The notes under the pieces were generated by a model. It had not been told where the DNA came from, did not search any database, and saw only the letters and a list, made by a program, of their open reading frames with translations. DNA of 36,489 bases from the IMG/VR virus record IMGVR_UViG_3300047552_000441, positions 1 through 36,489 of that record; one strand, 5' to 3'. How positions within the stretch are numbered: the first letter of the stretch is position 1; each line of letters starts with the position of its first letter. Both the position numbers and the translations under genes were made by a program. This document shows positions 1,131 through 19,986 of this stretch, in pieces. This DNA comes from a virus.

Positions 1131-3791
1131 TTAATGTTTAATTACTGTTGCACGCCATGTTGCTGACGCTGGGTCAACCGCACCGCCTGACATGTTATGA
1201 ATACGAACTGTTACAGTGTCTGCTGCCGATACCCACATGGAAAAACCAATACCCGCTTCTAGCGCGGCAGGCGCACCTGGAATAACCACACTTCCAGTTG
1301 TAGCCCCAGTAACAGTCATGGTTAAGTCAGCGTAGGAATTGTGCGCGATAGATGGGAAGTCTAGCGTAGCTGTTGCGGTGTAAACCTTACTTATTGCAGC
1401 CGAGCCAGCGCCGATTGTCGTTGCTCCTGCGTTATCCACGTTGAATACCGTAGTGCCACCAACAGCCCATTTTGCTATGTTTTTAGCCCCTGAACCAGTG
1501 GCTGTTTCAGTGACGTTGATGTTGGAAATAGTATAGCCAGCCGTGCCGGATTGATTGATTGACGGCGTAGAGCTGATAAGATTTGTCACGCCAGAGGTTG
1601 CTGTTGAAACAGTCCCATTGCCAAGGCGAATCAGTATATTGTTTGCTGTGGCCGAAGCGTTTATGTCGTAGTCGATAACTGTTGCAGCGGTGCTTGCATT
1701 ATAAATTGTTTTAGCACTGGATGAACCCACAGAGGCAAGGTAAAGCGAGCCAGTTGCACCCATAGCACTTGTGCCGATTTGCAAGATACCAGCAGAATTG
1801 CGCGATAGGTTTACGTCAGGAGTTGCTCCGATAGCGGCGTTGTTAGAGGCAGTGAAACCGTAATAGCTATTTGCGCCACCAAGGAATACGCCGCCGTTAC
1901 CAATGACAACCATGCCAGTTGCAGATTGCACGGCCTCGCCGTTGGCAACAATCCTGCCCGCGGAAAATGTGGCAAATGAGCCAGCATCGTTGGCAAGGAT
2001 ACACTGCATTGTTGTGCTGCTGCGCTTTAATGCTACATGCGATGATGTATTGCCACCAAGTCGAATAATTGGCGTTGCATTTGATGAACCAAACATTGCA
2101 TCGCCAGAAGTGTGGAACTGATAAAGAGGCGTTGTTATGCCGCCTATGCCAACACGTTGGTTAGATGTATCAATGTTTACTATGCTACTGCCAGCAGCGT
2201 TCTGGAAGTTATAACCAGAAGTCGTATTGGCCGACGGTCTCCATGCCATACCAGATGTGCTTGCAACCGTATTAAGAACATACTTTGTGGCATCCCAGCC
2301 AAGTAATAGCTGGGAATAGGTAGTAGATATGGATTCAAGCTTTGCAAATGTGGGATAGGTTAATGGCGTGTCCGTAATAGCAAATTGGCCTGTGGTATTC
2401 CAAGTAACGTATCCACCAGCTAAATAACCACTTCCGCCGTTATAAGCCCTGATATTATCGCCGCCTAATGTAGCAGAACCATCAGCATATGCCCTAAATG
2501 CAACGCGATTTTCATCACCATATCCTGCAATAATTTCGCCAATAGACAAGGTATCATCGTAGCCTGTACCGGTGTCGTAAACGTTGAATAGCGGCCATGT
2601 GTTGTTAAACGAATCGCCCTGAATCTGGATACCAGAATTAAACGTCATGCAGACAGGCTGGCCACCCTGTGCAGCAACACTAAAGGACGTGCCGTCAAAA
2701 CTCATGCCAGTGCTGTTGACGGATGGGTCAGCACCAAAGAACGGCTGGCCTAGCCCATAGCTATAGCCAACAAAGAAAGGATTACCGTAGTACGCAAGAC
2801 CAACTCCGGTCAGAGCATCGTCGTACATGTGCGCTGTCGGTGAGCCGTAACCAATATAGAAGTTTGGGGCAAGCATACTATTGAAGGCAGTGAAATCGCC
2901 GCCATCAAATATACTTACGTTGGTAATATCATAGCCGTTGAGGTCAACTGAACCAGTTGCGCCGGAGTAGGGGACGTAGCCAGTATCTAGGTAGTTTATA
3001 AGATCGGTTTGGTCGGTTATTGTGCCTGTGATGCTGCCCCATACAGCGCCAGTAGAAGATATAGTAATAGAGCTACCATCATCCGTAAAGGAGATATTAG
3101 AGCCTGCTACAAGGCTTTTAAGCGTAGCTGCACGAGGTTTAGCTGCTTTAATAAGGCTAGTACCAGTTGCTACAGAATCAAGTACAAACTTAGATCCGCC
3201 ACCAATTACAAACCTATCTTGGGCATCTTTGCCAGATTTACCTTCTGGACCTTGTAGATCCATAAAAGTAAAGCCAGGCTCGTCTTCACGACGAATACCC
3301 AGCTTAGTGCCTTCCCATGTATATACTAGACCAACACCATCGGTGCCGTCTTTACCTGCAGCTCCTGCATCCCCCTTGGGACCAACAGGACCAGTATCGC
3401 CTTTGTCACCTTTAGGACCAGTGTCACCATCTCTACCAGCAGCACCACGAGGACCTTGGGCACCTTTGAGTACCACACGCTCTTTGTAGTTTTCTAAGAA
3501 GTCTGCAGGAGATTCTTCTGCTTTAGGAGGTGCCACATGCACCAATGCTTCTTGCAGTTTCTTAAACTGTTCTAGCTGTTCTTTGGTAGATTTCTTAACT
3601 TCTTTTTTTACAGTAAGTTTTATTTCTGGTACAGGTGCAGGTGTAACAATTTCTTGTTTTACTACCTTGCCTTCTTGCCAGCACTTGTGTGTACCAGGCT
3701 CAACACCCTGACATGCAGACATGCAGGTATATTCCTTGCCACCATGGACACAGGTATCACCAGGTTTGTAAAAGGTTTTTTTATTGTACAT
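1131..3791 (-). CDS. Tail fibre with N-terminal Cys-rich domain and collagen-like repeats, 886 aa
   Basis: Probable receptor-binding or tail fibre protein. Residues 1-45 hold a small domain with four cysteines (YKPGDTCVHGGKEYTCMSAC, then C37 and W38) that resembles chitin-binding type CBM5/12 modules. Residues 50-108 are charged and proline-containing, probably helical. Residues 110-154 are 15 Gly-X-Y triplets (GPRGAAGRDGDTGPKGD), likely a collagen-like triple helix; a short GPEGKSGKD follows near 181. From about 225 to the end the protein is Gly/Ser/Thr/Asn-rich beta structure with the phage-fibre segment WGSITGTITDQTDL. The C-terminus (LEAGIGFSMWVSAADTVTV) looks like a fibre-tip beta domain. 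I see no S74 chaperone. The start overlaps the upstream stop as TAATG. Confidence 0.85.
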   Translation of the reverse strand: MYNKKTFYKPGDTCVHGGKEYTCMSACQGVEPGTHKCWQEGKVVKQEIVTPAPVPEIKLTVKKEVKKSTKEQLEQFKKLQEALVHVAPPKAEESPADFLENYKERVVLKGAQGPRGAAGRDGDTGPKGDKGDTGPVGPKGDAGAAGKDGTDGVGLVYTWEGTKLGIRREDEPGFTFMDLQGPEGKSGKDAQDRFVIGGGSKFVLDSVATGTSLIKAAKPRAATLKSLVAGSNISFTDDGSSITISSTGAVWGSITGTITDQTDLINYLDTGYVPYSGATGSVDLNGYDITNVSIFDGGDFTAFNSMLAPNFYIGYGSPTAHMYDDALTGVGLAYYGNPFFVGYSYGLGQPFFGADPSVNSTGMSFDGTSFSVAAQGGQPVCMTFNSGIQIQGDSFNNTWPLFNVYDTGTGYDDTLSIGEIIAGYGDENRVAFRAYADGSATLGGDNIRAYNGGSGYLAGGYVTWNTTGQFAITDTPLTYPTFAKLESISTTYSQLLLGWDATKYVLNTVASTSGMAWRPSANTTSGYNFQNAAGSSIVNIDTSNQRVGIGGITTPLYQFHTSGDAMFGSSNATPIIRLGGNTSSHVALKRSSTTMQCILANDAGSFATFSAGRIVANGEAVQSATGMVVIGNGGVFLGGANSYYGFTASNNAAIGATPDVNLSRNSAGILQIGTSAMGATGSLYLASVGSSSAKTIYNASTAATVIDYDINASATANNILIRLGNGTVSTATSGVTNLISSTPSINQSGTAGYTISNINVTETATGSGAKNIAKWAVGGTTVFNVDNAGATTIGAGSAAISKVYTATATLDFPSIAHNSYADLTMTVTGATTGSVVIPGAPAALEAGIGFSMWVSAADTVTVRIHNMSGGAVDPASATWRATVIKH

Positions 3792-4549: not shown

Positions 4550-4578
4550 ATTATAACACAAAATAAATTATTTGTCAA
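4550..4578 (-). promoter_or_regulatory. Consensus sigma-70 promoter for the leftward structural genes
   Basis: TTGACA (4578-4573), 17-base spacer ending TGT, and TATAAT (4555-4550), all on the minus strand. Upstream lies AT-rich DNA and a GGGAGGTA element that recurs at the same distance from the leftward promoter at 4960-4988. This appears to be the main promoter for genes 4549 down to at least 1131. Confidence 0.8.
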
Positions 4579-4610: not shown

Positions 4611-4781
4611 AGTACGGACCCGTAGGGGACGTTGTCTAGAGGGATAGGTACGGGATATGGTTTAAACGCATTTAAAGGGCCTTTTTAGAAGAGGAAGGGT
4701 ATAAAGATAACTACAGGTAGCTTAAACTACTCAAATCTTCTAAAAACAGTGTTTAAATTAAAAATACAGATTGTATCTGCC

Positions 4782-4958
4782 TACTAAAGTTATACTAAAG
4801 TATTATTTACTTTAAGAATATATTTTAGTATTATTTTATTTAGTAATTATACTTTAGTATTTTTTATTATAGTATTTATACTTTAGTATCTTTTACTTTA
4901 ATAATATACTTAAGTATTATTTCTATTATAATTATACTATAGATATATACTTAAGTAA
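4782..4958. repeat. Cluster of 12-bp palindromes ATACTTWAGTAT
   Basis: Exact copies of ATACTTTAGTAT, its complement ATACTAAAGTAT, or ATACTTAAGTAT lie at 4792-4803, 4849-4860, 4878-4889 and 4906-4917. Near copies lie at 4782-4790, 4820-4831 and 4947-4958. The last 25 bases (4933-4957) recur exactly at 14224-14248. The final copy begins right after the -10 box of the leftward promoter at 4960-4988, where transcription would start. Operators for a phage-encoded regulator are the simplest reading; an origin-binding role is the alternative. No obvious regulator gene was seen in the window. Confidence 0.8.
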
Positions 4959-4959
4959 T

Positions 4960-4988
4960 AGGGTAGCATACTTTTTAAGTTTTGTCAA
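4960..4988 (-). promoter_or_regulatory. Leftward promoter with operator-like palindrome at its start site
   Basis: TTGACA (4988-4983), 17-base spacer ending TGC (extended -10), then TACCCT (4965-4960). The -10 keeps only the three most conserved positions of TATAAT. Just downstream is ATTACTTAAGTA, one of the palindromes. The same arrangement, with the same unusual TACCCT, occurs at 14264-14292, which argues for function. Confidence 0.6.
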
Positions 4989-5020
4989 GCATTATTTTTA
5001 TACCTCCCAAAATTATGGGT
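4981..5020. repeat. Duplicated promoter-upstream element, copy 2
   Basis: Second copy of the element at 4571-4610, sharing TTTGTCAAG, ATTATTTT and CCTCCCAAAAT. It contains the -35 box of the leftward promoter at 4960-4988. Confidence 0.7.
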
Positions 5021-5176
5021 TAATTGGAGTAGATCTGCTGTTTTTTATTAACAAATATTACTGTTTTAGGTAGTGAGTTGATGAGTAAAATTAACTATTT
5101 ATTAAAATTTACCATAGGGTTAGTTAATATTTGGTAGTAGGTTGATAGACCATTTTAGATAGTTTTGCAAGCTAAG

Positions 5177-5241
5177 GCATACCCTAACCCATACCCTCCC
5201 CTATGCCCTCGCATACCCCTAGGCTAACCCTCACTTTCCCC
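5177..5241. other. C-rich/G-rich tract with possible G-quadruplex on the minus strand
   Basis: The plus strand carries repeated ACCC, CCCT and CCCC runs (GCATACCC twice, CTAACCC twice). The minus strand therefore has at least eight runs of three or four G within 65 bases, enough for a G-quadruplex, in DNA that is otherwise AT-rich. It lies between the palindromes and the DnaA boxes. Confidence 0.5.
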
Positions 5242-5508
5242 ATATTTATACTTTTCTATAGTCCGTACTAAGTTAGTCAACTAACTAACAAACTACTCAA
5301 ATTATAACATAGTAAGTAATTATCTAGTAATATCAAACACATGACTTATATATACCCGTAGTTGTACTATAGGCTACTTTTTTCTAATACGATTTCTCTT
5401 GACTGTGATAAAAATGTCACACCATTAACAGAAGATTAACACAACATTAAATTTTTGTAATGTTCAGTAACATTGTTGTAATATTTTGTAACAATTCGTG
5501 ATTGATAC

Positions 5509-5719: not shown

Positions 5720-5748
5720 TTGCATACCTGTTTTGTGTGTGTTATGTT
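5720..5748 (+). promoter_or_regulatory. Rightward early promoter
   Basis: TTGCAT (5720-5725), 17-base spacer ending TGT (extended -10), and TATGTT (5743-5748). The predicted start, near 5755, lies about 40 bases before the first gene of the early operon at 5794. This is the only good promoter I found upstream of the 5.8-10.9 kb block. Confidence 0.6.
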
Positions 5749-5793
5749 GTAGTCATTAAGGCAAAACACTAACCACTAACTAAGGATACACAC

Positions 5794-5973
5794 ATGTCAC
5801 ATTATATATCAGATGCAGAGCTTTCTAGGGTTATCCGCCAACGCATAAAGCAAGCTACGGAGGAGCTAGGTGGAAATAAAACACTTGCGCGTAAAGAGGC
5901 TATTAATTACATTGAGGAGCTGTTAGCAGAATTAATCACTGAGGAAAGGAATAAACCATGCTTGAACAAATGA
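5794..5973 (+). CDS. First early gene, small helical protein, 59 aa
   Basis: Not recognised. A short charged helical protein (AELSRVIRQRIKQATEELGG, then YIEELLAELITEERN). The start has a good ribosome site (AAGGA, 7 bases away) and lies about 40 bases after the early promoter. Its end overlaps the next small gene by 16 bases. Position as the first rightward gene suggests an early host-takeover role; this is inference from position only. Confidence 0.7.
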   Translation: MSHYISDAELSRVIRQRIKQATEELGGNKTLARKEAINYIEELLAELITEERNKPCLNK

Positions 5974-6038
5974 TTTTACTTTCGTTTCTAATTACGTTAC
6001 TAGCTGGTTGGCTAGTATATGAAGTTTACTCACTCTAA
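5958..6038 (+). CDS. 26-residue membrane peptide
   Basis: One predicted transmembrane segment (MILLSFLITLLAGWLVY) makes up most of the peptide. ATG at 5958 follows AGGAAAGG inside the end of the previous gene. Unknown function; similar mini membrane peptides recur downstream at 8564, 8890, 8997, 21190 and 31124. Confidence 0.6.
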   Translation: MLEQMILLSFLITLLAGWLVYEVYSL

Positions 6039-6057
6039 CTATAAAGGATACAATATT

Positions 6058-6279
6058 ATGACTACTTATACAATCGGCTTTGAACGTGAATACGGCGATT
6101 TTCAAGTGCTTGTAACACTCAATAACAATGACGAGCTAATGACGCCTGTACAGTTTAGCACTTTACGCTTGCGCACTATCACGCAGCTTAAAAATGCGTT
6201 AGGCGATGATTACGAAATTGTGTGCTTAGAGCGACAAGATGCACCGGACTATATTGATTTTGAAGAAACAGCAGAATAG
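6058..6279 (+). CDS. Unknown early protein, 73 aa
   Basis: Not recognised. Begins MTTYTIGFEREYGDFQVLV and ends acidic (YIDFEETAE), probably a small alpha/beta fold. I prefer ATG at 6058, which has AAAGGA 9 bases upstream, over an in-frame ATG at 6019 that would overlap the previous gene and has no ribosome site. Confidence 0.75.
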   Translation: MTTYTIGFEREYGDFQVLVTLNNNDELMTPVQFSTLRLRTITQLKNALGDDYEIVCLERQDAPDYIDFEETAE

Positions 6280-6292
6280 GGAGCATAAGACA

Positions 6293-6574
6293 ATGACAAT
6301 CGGAAAACATGCAACAAACGTATATTACAGTGAAGAAGGTGTTAAGGTTATCTATCATTCAACCGCAGTTGTTGAGGTATTCAATGACAGGGTAAAGCTT
6401 AACACCGGAGGCTGGTTTTCAAACACCACTAAAAAGCGTATGAATCAAGCTAGCGATGCCTTTAACCTTGGTTATTCTGTATTCCAGAAAAAGGGCGTAT
6501 GGTATGCTAACTACAATGGCCAGAATCATCAATTTGAAGGCAATAGCCTGTTATTATTCAGAAAGGCGGCATAA
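6293..6574 (+). CDS. Conserved-type phage protein with LNTGGW...TKKRMNQ motif, 93 aa
   Basis: Function unknown, but the core LNTGGWFSNTTKKRMNQ followed by VFQKKGVWYANY matches a short protein type I associate with many phages. The N-terminal half (ATNVYYSEEGVKVIYHST) is beta-rich; the C-terminal helix region is basic. Start chosen at ATG 6293 with AGGGAG upstream. Conservation across phages is recalled, not checked. Confidence 0.8.
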   Translation: MTIGKHATNVYYSEEGVKVIYHSTAVVEVFNDRVKLNTGGWFSNTTKKRMNQASDAFNLGYSVFQKKGVWYANYNGQNHQFEGNSLLLFRKAA

Positions 6575-6575
6575 T

Positions 6576-6689
6576 ATGGAATTAGAGCTAAAAACACCCG
6601 CAGAAATACACTCAGATTGCTGCGTTGGCTTGTGCTGGAATGACGGTGTAACGCTTAATGGTGACGAGTCAGAATTTTATATAGGATAG
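6576..6689 (+). CDS. 37-residue unknown protein
   Basis: Not recognised. Contains a short cysteine and tryptophan segment (SDCCVGLCWNDG) that could bind metal, and an acidic end. AAAGGCGG lies upstream of ATG, one base after the previous stop. Confidence 0.6.
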   Translation: MELELKTPAEIHSDCCVGLCWNDGVTLNGDESEFYIG

Positions 6690-10544: not shown

Positions 10545-10660
10545 CAGAAAGGCAACAAAAGGAATTGCTAGGGCTACTCAACATGGCAGCAATAGCACTA
10601 AAAGAAACACCACTAGGAATAGCTATTAACAACTATTTAAAAAAGATGGAGGCATTATGA
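10541..10660 (+). CDS. 39-residue helical peptide
   Basis: MTERQQKELLGLLNMAAIAL then a basic helix (NNYLKKMEAL). ATG overlaps the previous TGA and the stop overlaps the next ATG. Not recognised. Confidence 0.6.
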   Translation: MTERQQKELLGLLNMAAIALKETPLGIAINNYLKKMEAL

Positions 10661-10866
10661 TTTTAGCGATTACAGATAATTACATTGTAAAGAACTTTGG
10701 TGTTGACACCTATCACATAGAAGATTATAATACTCTCGATCAGTGTGTGCTACAAGGGATTGATGGTAGTATTTTTAAATGCGAAGTTGATTCTATTGAT
10801 GCTATTGCAAAAACACCAGAAGAAAAACTATCACGCATAGATACTCTGTGCATGTCTTATCTATAA
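10657..10866 (+). CDS. Unknown protein, 69 aa
   Basis: Beta strands first (MILAITDNYIVKNFGVDTYH), acidic centre, then a helix (KTPEEKLSRIDTLCMSYL). GGAGG lies upstream of ATG. Last member of the small-gene block before the amidoligase region. Not recognised. Confidence 0.65.
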   Translation: MILAITDNYIVKNFGVDTYHIEDYNTLDQCVLQGIDGSIFKCEVDSIDAIAKTPEEKLSRIDTLCMSYL

Positions 10867-10876
10867 GGAGCTGTAT

Positions 10877-11353
10877 ATGAAAATCGTTACACTACCAGAG
10901 GGCTTATACAATAATCTTGTAGAGGCTATTAAAAAGATTGAAAATACACCGCAGCGGCTATCAGAAGAGCTGCGTAAAGCGGCTGAGTATATTGCCAGCG
11001 CAAGCGGTGATCCGAATAATGCAAATGCTTTGTGGTTTTTTCAAAAAGCTGATGAAGTAGTATCTGATGTAAACGTAAAAGACAAACTGCTACATAAGCT
11101 AACTACTAAGACTGGGCTTATTCTCCTGCAAAAAAACGAAAGAAAGCTAATTAAACCAATACTTAATGATATTCAAATTGATTTTTCTCATATCAATAAG
11201 TATTCTAGCTTGACAAACGTAACTAATAGTAATAAGTTTAACGGATTCCCGTTACTACAAAGGAAAATTAGAGAGAAGATAAACAAGATACAAGAGGAAC
11301 TAGCAAGTCTTTGCACTTTAGATCAAGATGTTTTTTTACAAAAAGGAGAGTAG
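10877..11353 (+). CDS. Unknown helical protein upstream of the amidoligase, 158 aa
   Basis: Not recognised. Strongly helical and charged: LYNNLVEAIKKIENTPQRLS, SEELRKAAEYIASASG, a C-terminal coiled-coil-like IREKINKIQEELASL. The middle holds a polar Asn/Ser-rich link (NKYSSLTNVTNSNKFNG). GGAGC lies 9 bases before ATG. It ends one base before the amidoligase start, so it is co-transcribed with that gene and may be its partner or target; that link rests on position alone. Confidence 0.75.
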   Translation: MKIVTLPEGLYNNLVEAIKKIENTPQRLSEELRKAAEYIASASGDPNNANALWFFQKADEVVSDVNVKDKLLHKLTTKTGLILLQKNERKLIKPILNDIQIDFSHINKYSSLTNVTNSNKFNGFPLLQRKIREKINKIQEELASLCTLDQDVFLQKGE

Positions 11354-11354
11354 T

Positions 11355-12305
11355 ATGTACGCCCCAGAATTAGGAAAAGTCTATGCCTATAGCACTAATC
11401 CGTTAAGTTATCTACAGTTTATTCATCTTGAACATGAAAAAGATGGTGAATTTGAGCCACTTACATATTATGGCGTAGAGCTTGAAGTAGTGCCTAAACG
11501 CGCACCAATTACTACCTATAAGAAGATCCACTCTGCACTTGGTGCTGATTTTGCTATACTGAAAGCAGATTCTAGCCTACCAGAAAAAGGTGTAGAAATT
11601 GTTACCGCACCTGCAACACTTGATGCGCATAAAAAGCTATGGAAACCGTTTTTTGATAGTGCTGCATCTTCTTTAGTAGAAAGCTATGCAAGTAGCTCTT
11701 GTGGTATGCACGTACATATTAACAACGATTCTTTTGCAAATGCTAACCACCTGGGCAAAATGATTGCTTTTTATAACTGCCCAGTAAACAGACAGTTTAT
11801 CACCCGCATTGCAGGTAGAGAGTCAGGTTATGCACGCTTTAATAGTGCGTACAATGCGTACTCAGCAAAACTGTTACTAAACCAAAAAAGCACTATGCCA
11901 AATGCGTATATGGGTGGCGGTGAGCGTAGGAGTGCAGTTAATGTTACGTCTAAAGGTACAGTAGAGATTCGTATCTTTAAGGGCAATGTAGCACGTATTG
12001 GATTCTTTAAAAACCTTGAATTTGTAGATTCTGTAAAAGAATACTCAAAATTAATTTGGTTTAGTCCCCTTAGTGAGCGTAGGGCAAGGGAGGTGTATGA
12101 TCCTAAACGTGAAGAAACCCATTCTTATAGCTTGTTATTTAAGGATTATTTGGCATGGCTTGAACGCGATAAGACAGGTCGCTATACAAACCTTAAACTG
12201 TGGCTGTCTAAGAATGACTTAACCAAGCCTATCCAACTTAGATACACAGAGAAAACACCTGTGGATAAAATTATTACTGATGAAAATATCTTAGCTGTAG
12301 CGTAA
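11355..12305 (+). CDS. Amidoligase-like enzyme (COOH-NH2 ligase family), 316 aa
   Basis: Probable ATP-dependent ligase that forms an amide bond between a carboxyl group and an amine. Motifs fit the phage amidoligase family (Amidoligase_2 type, related to glutamine synthetase): YYGVELEV at 38-45, KADSSL at 70-75, VEIVTAP at 80-86, SCGMHVHIN near 115-123 and TVEIRIFKGN near 202-211. Alternating Glu and His/Arg residues in these strands are the expected metal and ATP ligands. ATG 11355 has GGAGAG upstream; an in-frame start at 11328 is less likely. A class II glutamine amidotransferase follows 11 bases later, a partnership described for this family and consistent with ammonia taken from glutamine. 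Substrate unknown. Confidence 0.8.
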   Translation: MYAPELGKVYAYSTNPLSYLQFIHLEHEKDGEFEPLTYYGVELEVVPKRAPITTYKKIHSALGADFAILKADSSLPEKGVEIVTAPATLDAHKKLWKPFFDSAASSLVESYASSSCGMHVHINNDSFANANHLGKMIAFYNCPVNRQFITRIAGRESGYARFNSAYNAYSAKLLLNQKSTMPNAYMGGGERRSAVNVTSKGTVEIRIFKGNVARIGFFKNLEFVDSVKEYSKLIWFSPLSERRAREVYDPKREETHSYSLLFKDYLAWLERDKTGRYTNLKLWLSKNDLTKPIQLRYTEKTPVDKIITDENILAVA

Positions 12306-12316
12306 AGGAATATAAT

Positions 12317-13351
12317 ATGTGCTTAATTGTTGTAAAAGATACTAAAAAAGGCGTTTTTACTGACGCTAATTTCAATGCCTCGTATAATCGTAACTCTGAC
12401 GGTATGGGTATTATGTGGCTAGAAGATGGGCGTGTAAAGGTAGAGCGTGTATTAGGCACACTTGCTCAGCAACGCTTTGTGTGGAACAAACATAAACATA
12501 AGGATATGTGGGTACTACACCAACGCTATGCTACGCATGGATCAAAGGCTAAGATGCTAGAAAACTGCCACCCGTACAAGATTATGGATATGGATGATGG
12601 TGACGTTATGGACATCTACATGGCGCATAATGGTGTTATTAGTGATACAGAAACTACGGATGCCTCTATGAGTGATACGTGGAACTTTATCGAAAACCAT
12701 ATTAAGCCTATTGTTAAGCATAATCCTGAGCTGCTGTGGAATGATGCATTTCAGATGATGATTAATAAATACATTGGTAGCGGTTCTAAGCTAGTGGTGT
12801 TGTCTAATCGTAAAAAAGATCCTATGCTTATCTTTAATGAAGAGGCAGGTACTGTGGTAAATGGCTGTTGGTTGTCAAATACTTACAGCATTACCCCAAC
12901 AGTAACTACGCATAAGCCTATTGCTGCTCCGTACAGACATACTAGCTCGTATCTTAGCAATTACGCTAAGCCAACTGAAAAGGCGTTTTGTATGCCTGAC
13001 ATTACTGCCTGGAAAGAGGATTGCAAGCAGGCTGTATTAGAAGGTACTCTTGATATTGAAGATGTTAAATCCGAATTTACAGAGGAAGAACTTAACTATT
13101 TAGAAGTAGAATTAGACGAACTTGAAGATCAATTTGATAGTGAGTTTGTAGATTCTATTAATGCTGTGTACGATCCAGAGAATGTGGATAAAGACCAGCT
13201 AAAAATACTCGTCGATAAAATCGCTAAAGAGTTTAACTATGTTGACTTAGAGCGACTTATTGACGTGTTACCGCAAGTTGCAGCGGATGTGATGGAGCAT
13301 TTGCTCTCATCATATGTAAGCAACCAGCTATTTGACGAACAAGCTGCTTAA
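12317..13351 (+). CDS. Class II glutamine amidotransferase-like protein, 344 aa
   Basis: N-terminal nucleophile hydrolase fold that releases ammonia from glutamine. Cys2 follows the initiator Met (MCLIVV), as needed for an N-terminal cysteine nucleophile. NSDGMGI (26-32), HQRYATHG (68-75; compare RWATHG in GlmS) and AHNGVI (103-108) are the expected glutamine-site motifs. After about residue 220 comes a C-terminal part not typical of GlmS, very acidic (SEFTEEELNYLEVELDELED) and probably helical; there is no sugar isomerase domain. It sits 11 bases after the amidoligase with a good ribosome site (AAAGGA), so the two probably act as one ammonia-using enzyme system. Confidence 0.85.
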   Translation: MCLIVVKDTKKGVFTDANFNASYNRNSDGMGIMWLEDGRVKVERVLGTLAQQRFVWNKHKHKDMWVLHQRYATHGSKAKMLENCHPYKIMDMDDGDVMDIYMAHNGVISDTETTDASMSDTWNFIENHIKPIVKHNPELLWNDAFQMMINKYIGSGSKLVVLSNRKKDPMLIFNEEAGTVVNGCWLSNTYSITPTVTTHKPIAAPYRHTSSYLSNYAKPTEKAFCMPDITAWKEDCKQAVLEGTLDIEDVKSEFTEEELNYLEVELDELEDQFDSEFVDSINAVYDPENVDKDQLKILVDKIAKEFNYVDLERLIDVLPQVAADVMEHLLSSYVSNQLFDEQAA

Positions 13352-13378
13352 TTATTAACAAACCTATAGGAGTTAAAC

Positions 13379-13630
13379 ATGACTGTTTCTTATAACTACG
13401 CTACCACCGAACAACCAGTAAAATACGCAACTGTAGTAAATCCAGAAGGTTACTATGACTTGATTATTAATAAATCAAAAAATGGTAAAGCTATCCGTAT
13501 TTCTAACCGTATTGGATCTGACAGTGTAAACGTAGCTGTTGAAAATGTTGGTAAATTTATTGAGGCACTCACTACCGTACAGAATAAAGGTGTGAATACC
13601 TCCGTAAATGACCTACCATACAATCAATAG
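13379..13630 (+). CDS. Small beta-rich protein after the amidotransferase, 83 aa
   Basis: Not recognised. Beta-rich (KYATVVNPEGYYDLIINKSK, GKAIRISNRIGSDSVNVAV), then a helix (VGKFIEALTTVQNKG), ending NDLPYNQ. AGGAG lies 7 bases before ATG. It is the last gene before a terminator, in one operon with the amidoligase and amidotransferase. It could be an accessory protein or even the modified substrate, which is speculation. There is no glycine-terminated tail of ubiquitin type. Confidence 0.7.
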   Translation: MTVSYNYATTEQPVKYATVVNPEGYYDLIINKSKNGKAIRISNRIGSDSVNVAVENVGKFIEALTTVQNKGVNTSVNDLPYNQ

Positions 13631-13639
13631 CGAGGTCTT

Positions 13640-13660
13640 GGGGAGGCATGTAGCTTCCCC
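13640..13660 (+). terminator. Rho-independent terminator after the amidoligase operon
   Basis: Stem GGGGAGGC (13640-13647) with GCTTCCCC (13653-13660), eight pairs including one G-T, 5-base loop, then a T/C-rich run. It begins 10 bases after the stop codon. The T run is weak, so some read-through is likely. Confidence 0.6.
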
Positions 13661-13707
13661 ATCCTTTCTCTCTTAAAAACACGGTTTAAATTAGAATGTG
13701 AGGCATT

Positions 13708-14263: not shown

Positions 14264-14292
14264 AGGGTAACACATAACTTTTATTTTGTCAA
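14264..14292 (-). promoter_or_regulatory. Leftward promoter-like element, antisense to the upstream genes
   Basis: TTGACA (14292-14287), 17-base spacer ending TGT, TACCCT (14269-14264) on the minus strand, with a palindrome at the expected start. It matches the element at 4960-4988 in every part. It points away from the primase and would make RNA antisense to 14182 and below. The -35 lies 2 bases before the primase ATG. Confidence 0.5.
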
Positions 14293-14294
14293 GT

Positions 14295-15077
14295 ATGAAA
14301 ATAGATATTTTAGCAAATTCTGTACAAGATGGTGAATCTAGGCGTTTTGATTGCCCGTTTTGCGGTGGAAATCAATCACTTAGTATTTCTAAGAATGGTA
14401 ATAAGATCCTGTACAACTGTTTTAGGGCTATTTGTGCTAAAAACGGTAGTGTTGGGTATGTACCGTCTTTAGATGCCTTAAAATCACGTTTAAATGCACC
14501 AAGCAAAGCAGAGGAGAAGTTTTTTATACCTGACTACTGGGTACATGGTGTTTCTTCTGAAAAGACCATTAAAATGCTTTTAAAGACTAATTCGTATGAA
14601 GCATACAAAAACGGTAACTTTAGGGTTGCGTATGACCCTAGGGAGGATAGGCTTGTATATCTCGTACAGGATGTACAAGGTAGCATGGTAGGTGCTGTAG
14701 GTAGAACTTTATCCAATGCTGTACCTAAAACGTTAAACTACCCAGGATCTGCGCCTGTACCTTTTAATGCTTGTGGTAAATCCTGTACAAAGCTAGTTAT
14801 TGTTGAGGATTGTGCATCAGCTTGTGCTATATCTGAAATACCAGGGGTACGAGGTATGGCGTTGCTTGGTACATACTTACGCAAAGATTATATACCCTTT
14901 ATGGCAAGGCATCTTGATGTGTACATAGCATTAGATTACGATGCTAGAAAAAAAGCACTTGACATGAAGCAAAGATTGCTGTATTATTGCAAAAAAGTAA
15001 ATGTTATTATTTTAGATAAAGATATAAAAGACATGACCTTGAACGAAAGAGAGAACCTATTTTATGCACCACGATGA
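14295..15077 (+). CDS. DNA primase (zinc ribbon plus TOPRIM), 260 aa
   Basis: Makes RNA primers for lagging-strand synthesis. An N-terminal zinc-ribbon pattern, C20-x2-C23 (DCPFCGG) with C42 and C47 (YNCFRAICAKN), resembles the template-reading finger of T7 gp4-type primases. The TOPRIM core is visible: VIVED at 168-172 (catalytic Glu), LLGT near 190-193 and ALDYDA at 212-217 (metal-binding Asp pair). It lacks a helicase domain; the helicase is a separate gene at 19967, so the T7 gp4 functions are split here. ATG 14295 is preferred; there is no ribosome site, and the palindrome cluster with a TTGTCA run precedes it, so translation may be unusual. Confidence 0.85.
   Translation: MKIDILANSVQDGESRRFDCPFCGGNQSLSISKNGNKILYNCFRAICAKNGSVGYVPSLDALKSRLNAPSKAEEKFFIPDYWVHGVSSEKTIKMLLKTNSYEAYKNGNFRVAYDPREDRLVYLVQDVQGSMVGAVGRTLSNAVPKTLNYPGSAPVPFNACGKSCTKLVIVEDCASACAISEIPGVRGMALLGTYLRKDYIPFMARHLDVYIALDYDARKKALDMKQRLLYYCKKVNVIILDKDIKDMTLNERENLFYAPR
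14959..14987 (+). promoter_or_regulatory. Possible internal promoter before the NAD genes
   Basis: TTGACA, 17-base spacer, TATTAT, inside the end of the primase gene and about 75 bases before the Nudix gene. No extended -10. Coding constraint could create it by chance. Confidence 0.3.
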
Positions 15078-15576
15078 ACTATACACTGGCAAATTTCTAA
15101 GCATCCACAGAACTCAGGAAGGGTACGAATATGCTGAACGTAAAGGTAAAGATAGCGTTGCTTTTTTGCTTTATGATTCTAGTAATAATACCGTTGGTTA
15201 TCGCAACGAATACAAGCCACCTGTAGCTACGTGGGTACTTGGTGCGTTTGGGGGGAGTATTGATAAGCAAAAATCCCCTGTTGATATTGTGATTGACGAA
15301 GTTGCTGAAGAGGCTATGTACAATGTGTCACCAAAAGATGTTAAGTATCTAGGAAAATACCTTGTATCCACACAAATGAATCAATGGTGTATGCTGTACG
15401 CAGTAGACGTAACAAATAATGAAGGTGACTATTATAGTGAGCAATCTTTTGATGTTTTAGAGAGCTTATCTGATACAAGCTGGCATAGGGCAGACAATAT
15501 TCCTACTGAGTGCTGGAAAGCATACGTAATTTTAACTAAGATGTTTGAGAAAGGTTTGGTAAAGCGTTATGTATAA
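15064..15576 (+). CDS. Nudix-like hydrolase, possibly acting on ADP-ribose, 170 aa
   Basis: Nudix fold by pattern: strands SVAFLLYDSSNNTVGYRNEY, a Gly-Gly turn (FGGSIDKQKSP) and a helix with VIDEVAEEAMY. The Nudix box normally reads REUxEExGU; here it is DEVAEEAM, keeping the metal-binding EE but with Asp for Arg and Met for Gly, and the first Glu of the box is not evident. Activity may be altered or lost. It overlaps the primase end and the NAMPT start, so it belongs to the NAD operon. ADP-ribose pyrophosphatase activity, recycling the product of NAD-cleaving defences, would fit the location but is inference. Confidence 0.7.
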   Translation: MHHDELYTGKFLSIHRTQEGYEYAERKGKDSVAFLLYDSSNNTVGYRNEYKPPVATWVLGAFGGSIDKQKSPVDIVIDEVAEEAMYNVSPKDVKYLGKYLVSTQMNQWCMLYAVDVTNNEGDYYSEQSFDVLESLSDTSWHRADNIPTECWKAYVILTKMFEKGLVKRYV

Positions 15577-16888
15577 TTTAATCATGCTTACAGATTCGTA
15601 TAAACTTTCTCATTTCGATCAGTATCCTAGCAAAATGCGGGGTATGCAATCATACCTAGAGGCACGTGGTGGTGCGTATAAGGATATTGTGTTCTTTGGA
15701 CTTGATTACATCATCAAAACGTACTTTACGCAGATCACTACAGGCATGATTGATGAGGCGGAAGCCTATGCAAATGCCCATGGCCTGCCCTTTAATCGGG
15801 AGGGGTGGGAGTATATTGCCACTTTGGATGGTTTACCTGTACGAGTAGTAGCAAAGCCTGAAGGTACTATCTGTAGTGTAAATGAGCCTTTGCTTACTAT
15901 TGAAAGCACTGATGAGAAGGCTGTGTGGCTTGTAAACTACCTTGAAACTCTGCTAATGAAAGTGTGGTATCCTTGTACCGTAGCTAGTAAAGCACTGTCT
16001 GTACGCAAACTACTAACAAAACATTACGAAAAAACTGGGGCTAATACAGATGCTATTGCTTTCTCTTATCATAATTTTGGTGATCGTGGAGCTACTTCAG
16101 TAGAGGCGGCTGCAATCGGCGGTGCTGCACACTTACTTACATTTTCAGGTACAGATAATTTTAACGCTTTAAGACTTATTGACAATACTTATATTAACAG
16201 TGATTCTGGTATTGGCTTTTCTATTCCTGCAACAGAACATTCTACAGTTACTTCCTGGGGTAAAAAGAATGAATTTTCTATGTATGATAATTACTTAGAA
16301 AAGAATAAAGGTAAAAATATTATTGCGTGTGTTATGGATTCGTACAATATCTATGATGCAGTACATTATATTACTACTACACTAAAGCGTAAAATTGAAT
16401 CTGTTGAATATCCTACTTTTGTAATTCGCCCTGATTCAGGCAATCCGCTTGACGTAATTCCTTCTATTATAGGTATTATGGAAAGTAATAATGTAGCTTA
16501 TAAAGAAGTAGGAAGCTACAAACTATTTGATAAATATAGAATTATTTGGGGAGATGGAATTTCACCAGAAGCTATTGACAAGATACTTGATCTTGTGGTA
16601 TCATTAGGCTACTCACCAGAAAACATTGCGTTTGGTAGTGGTGGGGACTTGATGCAGAAGTTAGATAGAGATACGTGCAAGTTTGCCATCAAATGCTGCG
16701 CTGTACGCACAGAGAGTGGAGAATGGGAGCCTGTATTTAAATCGCCTTTGCATGATGGCTTTAAAGTGTCAAAGGCAGGCTACCAGACAGTAAAAGAGGG
16801 TGTTGTATATTATGAAAACGGATGGATCAATACTCAACATATTTCATTTGTAGACATTCGCCTGCAACTACAAGGAGGTTTAAAATGA
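15569..16888 (+). CDS. nadV: Nicotinamide phosphoribosyltransferase
   Basis: Joins nicotinamide and PRPP to form NMN, the first step of two-step NAD+ salvage. Full length (439 aa). Family motifs: LTDSYKLSHFDQYP (7-20), YLEARGG (29-35), SYHNFGDRG (166-174), SIPATEHSTVTSWG (218-231) with the catalytic His at 224, VIRPDSGNPLDV (285-296) and FGSGGDLMQKLDRDTCKFA. All active-site residues I can place are present. It overlaps the Nudix-like gene by 8 bases. Paired with the NMN adenylyltransferase at 19456 it completes nicotinamide to NAD+, the combination known from phages as an NAD+ reconstitution pathway (NARP2 type). Confidence 0.95.
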   Translation: MYNLIMLTDSYKLSHFDQYPSKMRGMQSYLEARGGAYKDIVFFGLDYIIKTYFTQITTGMIDEAEAYANAHGLPFNREGWEYIATLDGLPVRVVAKPEGTICSVNEPLLTIESTDEKAVWLVNYLETLLMKVWYPCTVASKALSVRKLLTKHYEKTGANTDAIAFSYHNFGDRGATSVEAAAIGGAAHLLTFSGTDNFNALRLIDNTYINSDSGIGFSIPATEHSTVTSWGKKNEFSMYDNYLEKNKGKNIIACVMDSYNIYDAVHYITTTLKRKIESVEYPTFVIRPDSGNPLDVIPSIIGIMESNNVAYKEVGSYKLFDKYRIIWGDGISPEAIDKILDLVVSLGYSPENIAFGSGGDLMQKLDRDTCKFAIKCCAVRTESGEWEPVFKSPLHDGFKVSKAGYQTVKEGVVYYENGWINTQHISFVDIRLQLQGGLK

Positions 16889-19300: not shown

Positions 19301-19459
19301 ATGGTAGATATTGCAAAATGCGCTAACGAAAGCTGTAAGCTAAAAGATACCTGCTGGAGGTATACAGCACCGCCAGGATACTGGCAAAGCTATGGAGGAT
19401 TTTCTCCAGACAAAGATGGTAACTGTGATGCGTACTGGAATGTAAAGGATAGAAAATGA
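19301..19459 (+). CDS. Small Cys-rich phage protein, possible zinc binder, 52 aa
   Basis: Cysteines at 7, 12, 18 and 42 (KCANESCKLKDTCWRYTAPP) and an aromatic QSYGGFSPDKDG stretch. I associate this pattern, C-x4-C-x5-C-x-RY, later QSY and a final Cys, with short phage proteins of unknown function. Four cysteines could hold a zinc ion. TGGAG lies upstream; the stop overlaps the next start. Confidence 0.7.
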   Translation: MVDIAKCANESCKLKDTCWRYTAPPGYWQSYGGFSPDKDGNCDAYWNVKDRK

Positions 19460-19986
19460 AAAAATATGGAATGTTTTTAGGCAGATTTCAGCCTTTTCAC
19501 GTAGGGCATGAAGCTGTGGTACATGAAATTATTGCTGACGGTAGAGAGCCTGTATTGGTTATTGGATCATCAAACGTAATCAATGAAAAGAATCCATACA
19601 CACCTCAGCAGCGTAAGGATATGATTCATTGTGTTTTTCCAGAAATATCCGTAATGACTGTGCCTGACTGTCCTGATGATGAAAAGTGGGTACAAGAACT
19701 AAAATTTATTGAAAACTACCTTGACAGTAACGATATTACATGGTACACTACCTACAAGATTTCCGATAGATCTTTGTACACATATAAAAACACTATCTAC
19801 ACTTACTATCAGCACTTTCTGACAGCGGAAGGACTTTCTGTGACAGAGGCTACCTATCCGTCAAAGCTAGGCATAAAGATTTCTGCTACTGATATAAGAA
19901 AAGATATTGACGAACATAGACACTACTTAGACAGCCGCGTATATAAATATTTAAAGGATACATATAATGTCAAAAGAGCTACTTAA
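19456..19986 (+). CDS. nadM: Nicotinamide-nucleotide adenylyltransferase
   Basis: Joins NMN and ATP to form NAD+, the second step of the salvage route begun by the NAMPT at 15569. 176 aa, the usual length for NadM-type or NadR N-domain enzymes. Nucleotidyltransferase motifs: GRFQPFHVGH at 9-18 (HxGH at 15-18), NPYTPQQR at 46-53 and ISATDIRKD at 142-150 (ISxTxxR). ATG overlaps the previous stop. It is followed by the helicase, with 20 bases of overlap, so NAD synthesis and replication genes share a transcript. Confidence 0.93.
   Translation: MKKYGMFLGRFQPFHVGHEAVVHEIIADGREPVLVIGSSNVINEKNPYTPQQRKDMIHCVFPEISVMTVPDCPDDEKWVQELKFIENYLDSNDITWYTTYKISDRSLYTYKNTIYTYYQHFLTAEGLSVTEATYPSKLGIKISATDIRKDIDEHRHYLDSRVYKYLKDTYNVKRAT
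19721..19749 (+). promoter_or_regulatory. Possible internal promoter before the helicase
   Basis: TTGACA, 17-base spacer ending TGG (extended -10), TACACT. It lies inside the adenylyltransferase gene, about 220 bases before the helicase. It matches the architecture of the window's other strong promoters, so it may be real, but coding sequence could produce it by chance. Confidence 0.4.

Follow-up and report, generated by a model that had tools for sequence, protein, structure and literature searches.

The window (the whole stretch of viral DNA that we analysed, 36,489 bases, which is the entire IMG/VR record IMGVR_UViG_3300047552_000441) contains a cassette of four genes on the plus strand, within a run of small genes that precedes the DNA primase (14286-15077). 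In order, these are p158, which encodes a probably helical orphan protein of 158 amino acids (10877-11353); an amidoligase of 316 amino acids (11355-12305; we took the ATG at 11355 as the start, and the mechanical open reading frame begins at 11328); a class II (Ntn) glutamine amidotransferase, or GATase, of 344 amino acids (12317-13351); and p83, which encodes 83 amino acids (13379-13630). A check of the open reading frames (ORFs) bore out a preliminary description of this DNA as to the positions and common strand of the four ORFs, and also as to the spacing of the two enzymes: 11 nt separate the amidoligase stop (12305) from the ATG of the GATase (12317).

A sigma70-type promoter match, TTGACA-17-TATAAT, which agrees at 12 of 12 positions, lies at 10703-10731 on the plus strand, inside a small ORF (10657-10866) and 145 nt upstream of p158. 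There are three perfect matches in the 36.5-kb window (the other two, at 786-814 and 4550-4578, are on the minus strand), and matches with at most two mismatches number 17, where 8 are expected. For the units that have perfect promoters, the phage seems to use the host's sigma70-type polymerase. At the other end, the terminator that had been proposed to close the cassette was found at 13639-13661 (plus strand) as an intrinsic-terminator-like hairpin of 9 pairs with a folding z of -3.0, although its T-tract is weak (the tail is TCCTTTCTCT, in which the T-run is interrupted by a C). Because the promoter match precedes p158 and the hairpin follows p83, we read the four genes as one putative transcription unit. 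The cassette lies before the replication genes, which points to expression early or midway in infection.

The DNA polymerase of the window is nearest to those of HMO-2011-type phages of marine bacteria (44% identity to Pelagibacter phage HTVC033P). Genomes of HMO-2011-type phages are about 53-55 kb. Given this larger size, and since the window record had no match to phrog_2 (a large PHROG family that we take to be the large terminase) and no portal or capsid gene among the larger ORFs that we scanned, the record is probably a genome fragment. Elsewhere in it, 1131-3791 (minus strand) encodes an 886-amino-acid tail-fibre-like protein with collagen-like matches. The interval at 4780-5500, between two divergent gene blocks, is very AT-rich and gene-poor and contains imperfect tandem repeats of 28-29 nt (TATACTTTAGTATTATTT...) along with several inverted repeats; it is a candidate for an origin of replication or a control region.

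The amidoligase had been assigned to its family from the motifs GVELEV, CGMHVHIN, and TVEIRIFKG, and this assignment holds, as the protein passes the cutoff for PF12224 (Amidoligase_2; 26.9 bits versus a cutoff of 22). Searching PDB sequences with the amidoligase profile gave no match. An AlphaFold2 model built on 59 aligned sequences (pLDDT 83) matched YbdK (Z 12.3), plant glutamate-cysteine ligase (Z 11.8), and glutamine synthetase (Z 11.5); the matches to these proteins, several glutamine synthetases included, span Z of about 10-12, and Dop is among the Foldseek matches. From the model, we predict a fold of the glutamine-synthetase/glutamate-cysteine-ligase (GCS2-like) type. Residues E42, E44, E81, H119, R155, E204, and R206 are kept in at least 98% of relatives (146 sequences). 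Most of the relatives have a long N-terminal extension that the window's amidoligase lacks. In 109 of 140 relatives, this extension carries at least two CxxC motifs, and the window's protein has none; the motifs suggest that the extensions are probably zinc-binding domains, which in turn suggests a targeting module that is absent from the window's enzyme.

The GATase begins with MCLI, so that the putative nucleophile, a cysteine, directly follows the initial methionine. An MC start could be placed in 144 of 146 relatives, and C2, R70, T73, H74, G75, N105, G106, and D120 are nearly or fully invariant (145 sequences). As a single sequence, the protein scores 17.2 bits against GATase_6, which is under the cutoff of 27, and it matches TIGR01135 (glmS) with E = 1e-6, which is under the equivalog cutoff, as expected for one domain. 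The family profile matches the glutaminase domain of GlmS (1xff) with E = 1.6e-10 and aligns through HxRxATHG, NxHP, and HNG. All the glutaminase residues are kept, and we regard the earlier family call (from MCLI, HQRYATHG, and HNGVI) as confirmed. We take Arg70 to correspond to the site in GlmS that binds the alpha-carboxylate of glutamine; Asp120, which lies beyond the printed profile alignment, presumably corresponds to the site that binds the alpha-amino group. Because these two residues occupy glutamine-binding positions of GlmS, free glutamine is the expected substrate. Both the amidoligase and the GATase are probably active enzymes, as their catalytic residues are almost invariant across 145-146 sequences. 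The GATase also has an acidic C-terminal tail (residues 240-344, with 30 D/E and 6 K/R), which had been described as unusual. The tail is real but not special to this phage: tails of about 100 amino acids are the norm among 149 relatives. It is rather long and rather acidic for the group, with 18 relatives having a tail that is as long or longer and 7 having one that is as acidic or more so.

We scanned viral contigs with profiles of each protein and obtained 80 amidoligase loci and 80 GATase loci, which are partly non-independent (68 amidoligase clusters at 75% identity). A GATase adjoins the amidoligase at 79 of the 80 amidoligase loci, and at the sole exception the contig ends 93 nt past the amidoligase. 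Conversely, an amidoligase adjoins the GATase at 78 of the 80 GATase loci (an initial model recognised 75, and an improved one added three). One of the other two GATase loci begins at a contig end, so only a single locus (L087) has no amidoligase within 5 kb. The order is always amidoligase and then GATase, and the genes overlap or are separated by 30 nt or less in 142 of 156 cases (median 2 nt). All five loci from cellular genomes have the adjacent pair in the same order. The evolutionary distances of the two proteins are also correlated (r = 0.89 across 128 loci, or 0.54 among distant pairs, versus 0.07 or less in permutations), but this co-divergence would also follow from plain co-inheritance. 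Overall, the amidoligase and the GATase behave as a single unit. The near-obligate pairing, the predicted fold, and the catalytic residues are all results of this analysis.

The preliminary description had stated that pairing of these families in phages was already predicted from genomics, and this is correct: among known phages, phiEco32, LUZ24, tf, RIO-1, phiM6, and MEP402 carry the pair. One paper reports it in MEP401 and MEP402 and in more than 30 viral genomes of marine origin (PMC10580990). A peptide-bond module of COOH.NH2 ligase, amidoligase, GATase, ATP-grasp, and GGCT in phiEco32, LUZ24, and phiM6 is credited to Iyer et al. 2009 (as cited in PMC10580990, PMC5498523, and PMC11318856). 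In our comparisons, the pair in LUZ24 (gp18-gp19), phiEco32 (gp84-gp83), and phiM6 is part of a larger module that also includes ATP-grasp and GGCT genes. LUZ24 and phiEco32 have the COOH.NH2 ligase, and the phiM6 record had no match to PF14395. As in the window, the amidoligases of these three phages belong to PF12224, the GATase comes shortly after (as the next gene in LUZ24 and phiEco32; in phiM6, an ATP-grasp gene lies between the two), a small gene follows the GATase, and everything is upstream of the DNA primase. Profiles of the window's families detect the LUZ24 pair with E = 8e-5 and 2e-7. MEP402 and the podovirus MW202733.1 also resemble the window in having an adjacent pair in the same order, at 26-31% identity, and in MEP402 the pair is ahead of the DNA primase. 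In contrast to the window, the amidoligases of these two phages are about 520-550 amino acids with N-terminal extensions, and there is no p83. The window also differs from the phiEco32, LUZ24, and phiM6 system in that its amidoligase lacks the long extension. Because the COOH.NH2 ligase, ATP-grasp, and GGCT genes are all absent from the window's record (which is probably a fragment), the window holds the core pair already described in phages and not the full phiEco32-type module, and for the same reason the putative multi-step peptide pathway is incomplete in this record.

A single family of ATP-grasp genes, related to LUZ24 gp21, is present at 44 pair loci including LUZ24, mostly directly or soon after the GATase. 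ATP-grasp-like examples are at 5725-6483 of locus L155 and 5902-6663 of locus L137; the example in L155 matches nothing in Pfam and is only weakly similar to ATP-grasp peptide maturases. The co-occurrence of the GATase with GGCT and ATP-grasp peptide ligases in phiEco32, LUZ24, and phiM6 fits ligation by the amidoligase of an amino acid or peptide, instead of ammonia, to a carboxylate on a protein or peptide. The Ntn enzyme would then hydrolyse the product, removing or trimming it, in a make-and-break arrangement like that of Pup ligase and Dop. Dop and GCS-type ligases are indeed among the fold matches, and the GATase might be a hydrolase of gamma-glutamyl linkages. One paper places the GATase, together with GGCT, among degradation genes (PMC5498523). 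However, the GATase retains near-invariant glutamine-binding residues, as a glutaminase should, and a removal enzyme need not sit one-to-one beside its ligase, with overlapping genes, at nearly every locus. We consider this arrangement unlikely, if still a serious alternative.

The nearest relatives of the window are two IMG/VR contigs, L007 (3300033067_000202) and L008 (3300020021_000011). They share its gene order, with identities of 46-48% for the GATase, 34-37% for the amidoligase, 40-44% for p83, and 35-39% for the primase. Because the L008 record holds a COOH.NH2 ligase and GGCT, the window's close kin belong to the phiEco32-type theme. In both L007 and L008, the p83 homologue directly follows the GATase, with an identity comparable to the primase's or higher. 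Of the other small genes around the cassette that we compared, none had a match in these two contigs. We did not find p83 outside the window, L007, and L008, and neither MEP402, MW202733.1, nor two HMO-2011-type phages without the pair have it. Pfam and PHROG searches with p83 returned only matches above E = 0.02, and its predicted model (pLDDT 42) was not used for fold. We judge the linkage of p83 to the pair, seen in three phages, to be real, and p83 is probably a lineage-specific accessory of the pair.

For p158, we detected no homologue anywhere we searched. Short matches to DUF2096_N (just under the cutoff) and Cas7c were taken as chance. L007 and L008 lack p158, and instead their amidoligases have an N-terminal extension of about 440-490 amino acids. 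We rejected p158 as a split-off version of this domain, as the BLAST alignment spans 25 residues and the hhalign score was equalled by 1 of 100 shuffles. In LUZ24 and phiEco32, a gene for about 190-205 amino acids precedes the amidoligase, and homology of p158 to it was likewise rejected (best E = 0.07). More broadly, the small proteins that flank the pair in LUZ24, phiEco32, and RHph_I3_11 show no homology to those of the window. Thus, of the two small proteins that had been proposed as partners in the cassette, p83 stands, with the same place in L007 and L008, and p158 does not; as for whether they always travel with the pair, p83 does so in the two nearest relatives only. It seems doubtful that in this phage lineage a dedicated p83 (as adaptor, carrier, or substrate) joins the core pair in a compact system for amidation that differs from the phiEco32 module, with p158 replacing the relatives' fused N-terminal domain.

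That p83 follows the GATase in each of three divergent phages would also fit a pair that amidates a phage-made substrate, with p83 or p158 as the substrate or carrier, or else a DNA base. But nearly every pair locus lacks p83 and p158, so neither is a general substrate, and we recognised no base-modification gene among the genes scanned, in agreement with the doubt already expressed about DNA-base amidation. We find this explanation very improbable.

The window also encodes an apparent NAD salvage set (15064-16888 and 19456-19986), which comprises NAMPT (15569-16888; phrog_448, E = 4e-119), a weak nudix-like gene, and an NMN-adenylyltransferase-like gene (19456-19986). Sets of this kind could counter a NAD-depleting host defence. 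A search with a library of defence systems matched nothing to the amidoligase or the GATase. Since glutamine-dependent amidation is the chemistry of NAD synthetase, the pair could amidate a small metabolite or nucleotide, such as in a nicotinate-to-nicotinamide type of step that feeds these NAD genes. Yet NAMPT already begins from the amide, and it is present in just 1 of 50 other pair-bearing records, which indicates that the pair is independent of NAMPT. We dropped the link to NAD on this count and give metabolite amidation very little credence.

Near-invariant glutamine-binding residues, together with fixed one-to-one adjacency to an ATP-dependent carboxylate ligase, argue for a glutamine-dependent enzyme with two subunits. 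GatD/MurT and CarA/CarB are two-subunit glutamine amidotransferases of this kind, in which a glutaminase works with an ATP-dependent partner that activates a carboxylate. The proposed division of labour is the same, but one or both folds are unrelated to those of the window's pair (a class I GATase, and a Mur-ligase or ATP-grasp synthetase). With moderate confidence, we propose that the pair is a glutamine-dependent amide-forming enzyme whose target is most likely a peptide carboxylate, with the cell envelope as the leading guess, and that it is probably made early in infection. The N-terminal cysteine of the GATase would strip ammonia from free L-glutamine, and the amidoligase would use ATP to turn a carboxylate into an activated acyl phosphate, both activities being those expected of the families. 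The ammonia, perhaps channelled from the GATase to the amidoligase, or else an amine, would then attack the acyl phosphate to give the amide. The carboxylate would most likely be on a peptide, and the peptidoglycan stem peptide is the leading published guess; amidation of the envelope might alter the infected cell against superinfection. Four papers (PMC5498523, PMC6256558, PMC10580990, and PMC11318856) cite Iyer et al. 2009 and Hardies et al. 2013 for the proposal that the pair changes the peptidoglycan or cell surface to resist superinfection. The envelope as target is a guess taken from the literature, and we found no experimental test or measured activity of any member of a phage pair in the literature that we searched.

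The new points here are modest: the strength of the linkage, the compact form of the window's pair, and p83 as a lineage-specific companion. The window's copy has a ligase without the long extension, no ATP-grasp, and no cyclotransferase, so it may be an easier copy to express and assay. The pair is common in phages and tightly conserved; knowing its target would tell why so many unrelated phages carry these genes.
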